From Sneathiella aquimaris (lineage in GTDB: Bacteria; Pseudomonadota; Alphaproteobacteria; Sneathiellales; Sneathiellaceae), in assembly GCF_026409565.1 (NCBI RefSeq), contig NZ_CP112881.1:3355501-3419500 (forward strand): a DNA stretch of 64,000 nt, read 5' to 3'. Every line of letters starts with the position of its first letter. The stretch's first letter is position 1. This document shows positions 25,062 through 27,940 of this stretch, piece after piece. Under the pieces are notes generated by a model. The model saw nothing but the letters and a program-made list of their open reading frames with translations, searched no databases and was not told the DNA's origin. Both the position numbers and the translations under genes were made by a program.

Positions 25062-25080
25062 CTGACTGGTGAGACACTAG

Positions 25081-25111
25081 AAAACCGGTGCTTTTTGGCA
25101 CCGGTTTTTTT
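25081..25111. terminator. intrinsic terminator between yghU and the deformylase-like gene
   Basis: AACCGGTGC (25083-25091) pairs with GCACCGGTT (25098-25106), a 9-bp stem with a 6-base loop, then a T-run to 25111. The minus strand also ends in TTTT, so it serves both convergent genes. Confidence 0.9.
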
Positions 25112-25116
25112 GAGGA

Positions 25117-25629
25117 TCAAGCACGCGATGATCGTCGTAATTTCTTATACCGCCGCAATAGACCATCTTTCTTCACACGCGACAAATGATCCAAAAATGT
25201 TCGCCCTTCCAGATAATCCATCTCATGTTGAATGACCGAGGCAAGAAACCCGTCGGCGTCCAGAACCTGCCGCCCCCCTTGTGGGTCAAGATATTCTACG
25301 GAGATTTTTGCAGGGCGTGTGACTTCCGCTGAAATCCCGGGAAAACTCAATGATGCTTCCTCAAATGTTTGCATAGCTGATGACCGTTTCAAAACCATCG
25401 GATTGATCATTGCGATTGGATCTGGTTTACCCTCTTTTTTCACATCCATGACAATGATCTGTTTCAAAACACCCACCATGTTCGCACCGAGACCCGCGCC
25501 CTGCTCGCGGTAGAGAGTGTCAAACATGGCGGTCACAAGGCGCCGAATATCCTCATCGACCTTTTCGACCTTGGCGGCCTTTTTCCTGAAGATCGGATCA
25601 GGCGCATAAACGAGGGGCAAAAGGGGCAT
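25117..25629 (-). CDS. peptide-deformylase-like protein with altered metal site
   Basis: A 170-residue protein of the deformylase fold. Canonical motif 1 (G-x-G-L-A-A-x-Q) reads G-A-G-L-G-A-N-M-V-G here (residues 44-53), losing the catalytic Gln. Motif 2 (E-G-C-L-S) reads E-A-S-L-S, so the metal ligand Cys is Ser93. Motif 3 (H-E-x-D-H) reads H135-E136-M-D-Y139, so the second His ligand is Tyr. Two of three metal ligands are gone, so ordinary deformylase activity is unlikely. AGGAAGACC precedes the ATG. A true def gene should lie elsewhere. It could be a regulator or bind peptides. It is not a recent pseudogene: the frame is intact. Confidence 0.85.
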   Translation of the reverse strand: MPLLPLVYAPDPIFRKKAAKVEKVDEDIRRLVTAMFDTLYREQGAGLGANMVGVLKQIIVMDVKKEGKPDPIAMINPMVLKRSSAMQTFEEASLSFPGISAEVTRPAKISVEYLDPQGGRQVLDADGFLASVIQHEMDYLEGRTFLDHLSRVKKDGLLRRYKKLRRSSRA

Positions 25630-25767
25630 GGTCTTCCTATCTGTCTTTCAACAATTTCTAAATGCACATACCATACTCAACCAAAAAACCATTGGATTTT
25701 ATGCGTGAAACTGGTCTAGCGTCTTTCAACCAAATTTGACAAAAGACAACCGTTCAGGAAGCAAACC

Positions 25768-26889
25768 ATGGATAAAACCGCCATAAAAGAAGCGGACCTT
25801 CTCGAAAAAGTGGAAGACTTTGCAAAAACCGTTATTTTCCCGCAACGCGAAACACTTATTCGCAGTCCCATCTTTCCGGAAACTCTGTGGCGCTCTTTTA
25901 TCGACTATGGACTTGCCGGTCTAAGCATCCCCGCAGATTACGGAGGGCAAGGCGCGAGTTTTCAGACCATCGCGCAGGCCGGATATCTTTTGAACCGATA
26001 TGGTGGTGTGCCCGGCGTCAACCTGACACTTTGTTCACACTGGACCCTTGCCCGCCTGCATTTATTAAAGGGCACATCAGAGCAGCTCAAGGAAAAATAT
26101 CTGCCCGCTATTGCTGAAGGGACAGAAATACTGAGTGTAGCCATCTCTGAACCTGGTGCAGGCGCTCATCCAAAGAAACTCGGCACAACTGCCATCCGAA
26201 ATGAGGGCCGTTTTCTTTTAAACGGCGAAAAAGCCTTTCTGACCAATGGGCCATTAGCCACGGCATATCTTGTTCTGGCCATTACCAGCGAAGAAAAAGG
26301 GCGGCGGGCTTTCAGCACTTTTTTAATTCCATCAAAAACAGAAGGGCTGGAAAAAACCGCTGGCGTCGAACTGGACTTTCTTCATCCCTGCCCGCATGGC
26401 GGGGTACGACTGCAAAACTGTTCCATCAAAGAAGAAAATATGATCGGTGAAGAAGGAACTGCTTTTGAAAGAACATCCCTAAGAATGCGCGCGGTTGAAG
26501 ACGCCCTTGGTGCGGCCAGCCTACTGGGAACGTTAAGCCATCTTTTATATCATTTCGCCCGAAACGCCCCTCTTTCTACCGCCAGTCAGATCGGCGCGAT
26601 CGAGACACAGTTACAATCCTTGAAAATAGTCGCAGCCCATCTGGCAAACCAGGCTGAAGAGCAATCGGACGCCCTGAATACCCTTCTGTCATTGTATCTC
26701 GGTTTTCGGCAGCAAAGCAAAACCTGCCTGACCGCAATCAGGGACTTGTATGAGACGAGCCCCACTGACCCCTCTGAATATATCAGCCTCCTGTTAAGAG
26801 ATGTGCTAAAATATAGCTCAATTGCAGGTTCTGCGCATAATAGCCGCTTGTCAAAGGTCGGTCTTTCAATCCTTGGTTCCAACACATAA
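25768..26889 (+). CDS. acyl-CoA dehydrogenase family protein
   Basis: A 373-residue FAD-dependent dehydrogenase. N-terminal helices, then the beta domain with A-I-S-E-P-G-A-G-A and G-E-K-A-F-L-T-N-G-P, then the C-terminal helical domain with R-M-R-A-V-E-D-A-L-G-A-A. The last part lacks the usual G-G-x-G-Y glycine stretch and has A-G-S-A-H-N-S-R instead, so it is a divergent member. AGGAAG precedes the ATG. Its substrate is uncertain, and the next gene starts 10 bases after its stop, suggesting an operon with the DUF2804 gene. Confidence 0.82.
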   Translation: MDKTAIKEADLLEKVEDFAKTVIFPQRETLIRSPIFPETLWRSFIDYGLAGLSIPADYGGQGASFQTIAQAGYLLNRYGGVPGVNLTLCSHWTLARLHLLKGTSEQLKEKYLPAIAEGTEILSVAISEPGAGAHPKKLGTTAIRNEGRFLLNGEKAFLTNGPLATAYLVLAITSEEKGRRAFSTFLIPSKTEGLEKTAGVELDFLHPCPHGGVRLQNCSIKEENMIGEEGTAFERTSLRMRAVEDALGAASLLGTLSHLLYHFARNAPLSTASQIGAIETQLQSLKIVAAHLANQAEEQSDALNTLLSLYLGFRQQSKTCLTAIRDLYETSPTDPSEYISLLLRDVLKYSSIAGSAHNSRLSKVGLSILGSNT

Positions 26890-26899
26890 AAGCAATAAA

Positions 26900-27940
26900 A
26901 TGACAATAAACACCAATCAGACTTTTGTTTTACCCGATGGGTCTGTTTCTTTTGGATTTTTTGAAAACTCTGTCGGACGCCTGAATTACGAAGATTTTTC
27001 TTTACGCTCCCCCTGCCGTGAACAACTTCCCACAGACGAAAGACTTCGCCGGTTTGTTCACTTTAATTTCATGGGATTTACATCTGACCGATTTATCTCT
27101 GGCTGTTCTTTATCCTACGCAAACAAGCAAACAACCGTATTTTTCTACGTTTTCGACAGACATAAAAAAACCATCCTGAAACGAGGTTGTCGTGCCCGAA
27201 GCGGGGACATCACCGACATAAATTTATCACCCGATGATGGTATTTCTCACATCATGGGAAAAGGCATGGATGTGCAGTTCATCTCGTCGCCGGGCAACCG
27301 GGAAAAAACCCTTATTGTTAAGCTCGATGGATCGGACGTCTTAACGCTTTCATTTCAGGAACAGGAACCGCCTTTTGACACCTTACGCCTGTGTACGCCG
27401 GTTGGCCCAAACGGGTGGAGTTATTGCCAGAAAGTGGCAGGGCTAAAAGCCAGTGGGACATTAACGCTGGATGGTGAAGAACATGACCTTCGTCACCAGA
27501 ACGCCTATGCCCATCATGACTTTACCGGTGGCTATCTAAGGCAGGATACATTTTGGAACTGGGCGTGCTTTACAGGGCAGGGCGACCACGGGAAGGCTCT
27601 GGGACTGAACCTGTCCAACGGTGTCAACGAAACTGGTCATTCAGAAAATGTGATCTGGCGCGACGGGAAAAGACAATCATTGGGATTGGCCACATTCGCC
27701 TATGACCCTAATGACTTAACAAAGAAATGGACAATTAGAACAGCCGATCTGGGGGTTGATCTTACCTTCCTGCCAGATGGTCAATATGCCGCTTTTCAGC
27801 CCGACGGTCCCACTCCGGTCGATTTCACACAACTGTTTGGAACCTTCAATGGCCGCGTGACGCTTGCGGACGGTGAGACAGTTTCCGTTCGACAAATACC
27901 CGGATTTTGCGAACGCCAATATTCCGTTTGGTACCCGTAA
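26900..27940 (+). CDS. DUF2804 family protein
   Basis: A 346-residue cytoplasmic protein with no membrane segments. Diagnostic parts are F-N-F-M-G-F-T-S-D near residue 55, Y-C-Q-K-V-A-G-L-K-A-S-G-T and H-H-D-F-T-G-G-Y-L-R near residue 212, then W-N-W-A-C-F, and the terminal G-F-C-E-R-Q-Y-S-V-W. DUF2804 proteins are related by fold to lipocalin-like/tocopherol-cyclase-like barrels and have no known activity. The start is the ATG 10 bases after the previous stop, with no clear ribosome site. It probably shares a transcript with the acyl-CoA dehydrogenase. Confidence 0.85.
   Translation: MTINTNQTFVLPDGSVSFGFFENSVGRLNYEDFSLRSPCREQLPTDERLRRFVHFNFMGFTSDRFISGCSLSYANKQTTVFFYVFDRHKKTILKRGCRARSGDITDINLSPDDGISHIMGKGMDVQFISSPGNREKTLIVKLDGSDVLTLSFQEQEPPFDTLRLCTPVGPNGWSYCQKVAGLKASGTLTLDGEEHDLRHQNAYAHHDFTGGYLRQDTFWNWACFTGQGDHGKALGLNLSNGVNETGHSENVIWRDGKRQSLGLATFAYDPNDLTKKWTIRTADLGVDLTFLPDGQYAAFQPDGPTPVDFTQLFGTFNGRVTLADGETVSVRQIPGFCERQYSVWYP

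Follow-up and report, generated by a model that had tools for sequence, protein, structure and literature searches.

Can a protein with the whole fold of a peptide deformylase (PDF) but with two of the three metal ligands replaced still act as a deformylase, and if not, why is it kept? The question is raised by a gene of the marine bacterium Sneathiella aquimaris, located at positions 25117–25629 on the reverse strand of the 64,000-nucleotide stretch of DNA that was analysed (the window). Its frame is intact, encoding 170 aa from an ATG start with no internal stop, and is preceded by a ribosome-binding-site-like AGGAAG three bases upstream of the ATG (AGGAAG-ACC-ATG, read from the sequence; 25630–25641, reverse strand). 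Between this gene and a convergent YghU-like gene lies a bidirectional terminator-like hairpin (25079–25110, both strands), which is far more stable than shuffled sequences (folding z = -5.9 on the forward and -6.6 on the reverse strand); it was not reported by a generic terminator scan. The open frame, ribosome site and terminator of the original prediction are thus all recovered.

That prediction also held that the protein had lost the Gln of motif 1, the metal-ligand Cys of motif 2 and the second His of motif 3, and alignment to solved PDFs with HMMER bears this out at each position. Motif 1 (residues 44–53, GAGLGANMVG; 25471–25500, reverse strand) has Met51 opposite the conserved Gln50 (E. 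coli numbering). Motif 2 (residues 91–98, EASLSFPG; 25336–25359, reverse strand) has Ser93, encoded by TCA at 25351–25353 (reverse strand), in place of metal Cys90, preceded by Ala92 for Gly. Motif 3 (residues 134–142, QHEMDYLEG; 25204–25230, reverse strand) retains His135, the first metal His, and Glu136, and has Tyr139 (codon 25213–25215, reverse strand) opposite the second metal His136. Two of the three metal ligands are therefore gone, and no re-alignment to solved PDFs recovers either of them. Set against the residues expected of the enzyme, the protein lacks the Cys of EGCLS, the second metal His of HExxH and the Gln of GLAAxQ, and keeps the catalytic Glu of HExxH. Family models nevertheless recognise it: Pfam PF01327 covers residues 5–154 with 158.6 bits (cut-off 22.8), and the NCBIfam equivalog TIGR00079 (pept_deformyl) matches with 138.6 bits (cut-off 103.95). 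On the strength of the latter the product would be annotated as peptide deformylase, yet its active-site residues argue against activity.

The predicted structure is that of a complete PDF. An AlphaFold2 model (pLDDT 93.0) superimposes on E. coli PDF with Z 27.5 and rmsd 1.4, and on PDFs in the PDB with Z 25–27 and TM 0.92; for the E. coli and Burkholderia multivorans (5J46) enzymes the matches are nearly full length (Z 27, rmsd 1.3–1.6, 40–43% identity). In common with these canonical type 1 PDFs the protein has the first metal His, the catalytic Glu and, in the model, a C-terminal alpha helix (residues 151–169; 25123–25179, reverse strand). This basic helix is the counterpart of the ribosome-binding helix of E. 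coli PDF, whose C-terminal tail binds the ribosome according to a review of PDFs (PMC12690207).

The gene is not an isolated case, and it is not a duplicate in decay. A group of 25 sequences, which we refer to as family A, has one common set of changes: ten are from Sneathiella and fifteen from elsewhere, with hosts including Kordiimonas marina, a Parvibaculaceae genome, other Alphaproteobacteria and several Rickettsiales, among them a Ca. Megaira symbiont. (One carrier, a metagenome-assembled genome of ~1.4 Mb labelled Rickettsia typhi isolate ZH-03apr19-290 (L062), probably has the wrong species label.) Family A was found in seven members of a sample of 385 alphaproteobacterial genomes, in which its profile separates members (249–270 bits) from canonical PDFs (at most 205 bits) by a clean gap. 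Phylogeny of the variants, with the trait columns removed from the alignment, places family A in a single clade with support 98/95. Met51, Ala92, Ser93, His135, Glu136, Asp138 and Tyr139 are invariant in all 25 members, and at the motif 1 position the contrast is complete, with Met in 25/25 family A sequences and Gln in 59/59 canonical rows compared. Recurrence of the same changes in 25 sequences is more than chance.

Differences from canonical PDFs are concentrated in the motifs: there are 11 positions that are fixed in family A and different in canonical PDFs, and six fall inside the 24 motif residues that the original prediction had named beforehand (p = 0.0012). The net charge of the C-terminal tail is canonical-like (+6.9 in family A vs +7.0 in canonical PDFs). 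From these sequences family A would seem to have a remodelled active site, with the body and the anchor preserved.

That the variant is maintained, as was originally proposed, agrees with the signs of purifying selection. The invariant residues recur across the clade, every one of the 25 frames is open, and dN/dS is ~0.08–0.15, a range that comes from the three pairs with computable dS (two of them with dS near 1.7), since dS is saturated in most pairs. A recent duplicate drifting toward loss of function would account for the patchy distribution within the genus, where the gene is found in 10/24 Sneathiella genomes (some of them incomplete) and is missing from many. The open frames, the low dN/dS of the three pairs and the persistence of an invariant replacement signature across orders, even in Rickettsiales genomes of 1.3–2.4 Mb, contradict decay, and we give this explanation almost no credence.

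Whether the cell needs this protein for deformylation can be judged from its other PDF genes. The S. aquimaris genome has three, the PDF-like gene and two canonical ones. The first of these, with fmt directly after it, has the motifs GLAAIQ, EEGCLS and QHEMDH; the second, more distant, has GLAAPQ, EGCLS and HECDH. The cell should therefore not depend on the PDF-like gene for deformylation. Other hosts have such a gene too, a PDF containing GLAAxQ and E[GA]CLS being present in all 14 further genomes searched; motif 3 reads HExDH in the canonical PDF of 13, and the fourteenth was not recovered by the pattern used. In Salmonella PDF the single change of Cys90 to Ser abolishes activity (PMC7683392). 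By analogy with that mutant, in which one of these substitutions is sufficient, and with the second His and the Gln gone as well, canonical deformylation by the PDF-like protein is very unlikely. The original suggestion of a likely non-deformylase thus gains support from both the canonical def genes and the inactive mutant.

Family A is not the only such group. Among the second and third PDFs of other Alphaproteobacteria there are two further groups in which Ser replaces the metal Cys, families B and C. Family B (L123–L134) is the second PDF of Rhizobiales-like genomes, with the motifs GITAPHIG, EGSVSMPG and HEIDQ; it is of the kind that UniProt names 'peptide deformylase-like'. In common with family A it has the Cys-to-Ser change, has lost the motif 1 Gln and the second His, and keeps the basic tail; it differs in forming a separate clade, in having His for the Gln and Gln for the His, and in encoding the Ser with AGC rather than TCN. 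A search pattern for family B gave no matches in 190 genomes because it was written with a TCN Ser. When a family B member was searched against the PDB, the top-ranking structure, whose alignment was the one inspected, was a canonical PDF.

Family C (L064 2800–4400, L117, L118, L120) is one member of a cluster of three PDFs in Rhodobacterales, a cluster described in PMC12690207; another accessory member of the cluster retains all ligands. It shares with family A the Cys-to-Ser change, EEAS in most members and PG after motif 2 (EEASPNLPG or EEGSPNLPG), and differs in that both His are kept and the catalytic Glu is replaced by Gln (QHQIDH), as well as in being clustered with two other PDFs. Each family has thus lost the metal Cys together with a different second element, which is the second His in A (to Tyr, with Gln to Met) and in B (to Gln, with Gln to His), and the catalytic Glu in C.

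These families probably did not arise once. In the tree, which contains alphaproteobacterial PDFs only and omits the trait columns, B and C are also supported clades (100/100 and 100/99); B sits next to canonical PDFs (93/88), some of which come from the genomes that also carry B, and C falls within the Rhodobacterales cluster. The Ser codon is TCN in 25/25 family A members vs AGC in 10/10 of family B, and these are two different one-step routes from TGY. A common origin of all three families was considered and is disfavoured, in that a tree forcing them together is 26 lnL units worse, although the AU test (p = 0.175) does not reject a single origin; for A and B the Ser codons argue against it as well. 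From the tree placement and the different codons we consider the Cys-to-Ser change in A and B to be probably of independent origin, with at least two origins supported but not strictly proven.

The comparison with B and C bears on whether family A could still be a deformylase. Its metal site might have been rebuilt in a harder form, in which Ser93, His135, Tyr139 and water hold another metal or oxidation state and the enzyme works when oxidants or nitric oxide damage the Cys-ligated iron enzyme. It is Cys90 of PDF that NO nitrosylates (PMC7683392), PMC12690207 suggests that type 3 PDFs may turn to other metals when under oxidative stress, and His135, Glu136 and Tyr139 are invariant in family A. 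This proposal has to contend with the inactivation of Salmonella PDF by C90S alone (PMC7683392) and with the loss of the conserved motif 1 Gln. It would also not lead one to expect that the Tyr is absent from B, which has Gln, and from C, which has lost the catalytic Glu; such different second-site changes argue against one common new metal chemistry. We regard a redox-hardened deformylase as unlikely.

A hydrolase that has dispensed with the metal is a second way in which the old pocket could be active, with Ser93 as nucleophile acting together with His135 (and Glu136 or Tyr139) on a formyl or acyl substrate. All three families conserve Ser and His at neighbouring former ligand positions, and the Ser was gained through different codon routes in A and B; but of the one-step changes that empty a metal site Cys-to-Ser is also the mildest, and family C has no conserved Glu with which to complete a triad. 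Such an enzyme seems very improbable. A wider proposition is rather improbable too. It would have the former metal pocket turned into a catalytic site of Ser and His without metal, or into one that holds an unusual metal through Ser, His and Tyr; such a site would have been invented more than once in alphaproteobacterial PDFs and would serve a new substrate or operate under new conditions.

The surroundings of the gene indicate no partner or pathway, as the neighbours are not conserved; all-against-all clustering of the neighbours at 24 loci revealed in common only scattered, widespread enzyme families. In the window the gene is divergent from an acyl-CoA dehydrogenase-like gene (25768–26889), to which Pfam matches the N and M domains only, its last ~170 residues being without the C-terminal dehydrogenase domain; a few relatives (L045, L046, L068, L069) have similar genes, encoding 374–388 aa, close to the PDF-like gene. 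The DUF2804 gene at 26822–27940 is listed with a TTG start that overlaps the upstream gene; translation probably begins at an ATG (MTINTNQ...) near 26900. Origins of the PDF-like gene from mobile elements were also considered and rejected: viral contigs contain no relative, and the best plasmid matches are 45% identical, are annotated as def where annotated, and are not near enough for family A.

The absence of a conserved link to translation genes would be expected if the PDF fold had merely been reused as a scaffold or partner outside N-terminal processing, for example as a peptide-binding or hetero-oligomer subunit, and the family-specific substitutions outside the active site (F14, L39, I58, G98 and L157) point the same way. 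The charge of the basic ribosome-binding tail is unchanged, however, and the residues of the cleft motifs are among the most conserved in family A. A role unconnected with N-terminal processing accordingly has a small share of our expectation.

The retained fold, cleft and helix, the active-looking paralogue and the separately arisen counterparts are best read together as a pseudo-deformylase of the tunnel exit, and the gene has probably been retained because the dead protein is useful, as a regulator or as a binding protein. In the specific form that we favour, with modest confidence, the protein is catalytically dead and tethered to the ribosome, where its binding to nascent chains with N-formyl-Met, or to the site at which PDF docks, tunes deformylation. 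A type 1 PDF paralogue would have lost its metal centre and catalysis and retained the fold, substrate cleft and basic C-terminal helix. By analogy with the E. coli helix it would sit at the ribosomal tunnel exit, binding to the docking site, to the N-formyl-Met nascent chain or to both, with no hydrolysis taking place. By competing with or assisting the active PDF it may set the timing and choice of the N-termini that are deformylated. Selection for a dead scaffold would be expected to leave just this trace, inactivation more than once and by different routes. Counting against a pseudo-deformylase are the patchy occurrence in Sneathiella, the unconserved neighbours, the AU p of 0.175 and the altered type 3 PDFs of trypanosomes, which are reported active (cited in PMC12690207). 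In family A, moreover, His135 and Glu136 are invariant, which one would not expect of a site that is completely dead; some residual or altered chemistry is conceivable.

Type 3 PDFs are the nearest described relatives in kind. In PMC12690207 they comprise accessory PDFs of S. aureus and S. pneumoniae, trypanosomes and archaea, with substitutions in motifs I and II, and the bacterial ones are reported as weakly active or inactive. The PDF-like protein is likewise an accessory PDF with both motifs changed (GLGANM and EASLS). It differs in that this description covers motifs I and II, whereas the protein is also without the second His of HExxH, and in that family A groups with alphaproteobacterial type 1 PDFs, in a tree of alphaproteobacterial PDFs only, type 3 being compared by description. 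From canonical type 1 PDFs it is set apart by the fixed pattern in which two of three metal ligands and the motif 1 Gln are replaced.

Deviations from the motifs in many accessory PDFs, and a lack of activity in some, are already known, as the available part of PMC12690207 relates; that part contains no description of the family A clade by name or motif, and a literature search found no paper on it. Family A sharpens the earlier statement that accessory PDFs may be inactive. The same source notes that bacteria cannot do without PDF, that the enzyme is a target of antibiotics, and that roughly half of bacterial genomes have additional copies. Automatic annotation (TIGR00079, PF01327) names proteins such as this one deformylases, so that both PDF targets and presumed accessory resistance genes are overcounted. 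Given a clade whose metal site is empty and which selection maintains, and given that such a site was probably emptied independently more than once within a single bacterial class, that statement would become a testable claim, that bacteria repeatedly evolve dead deformylases as regulators.
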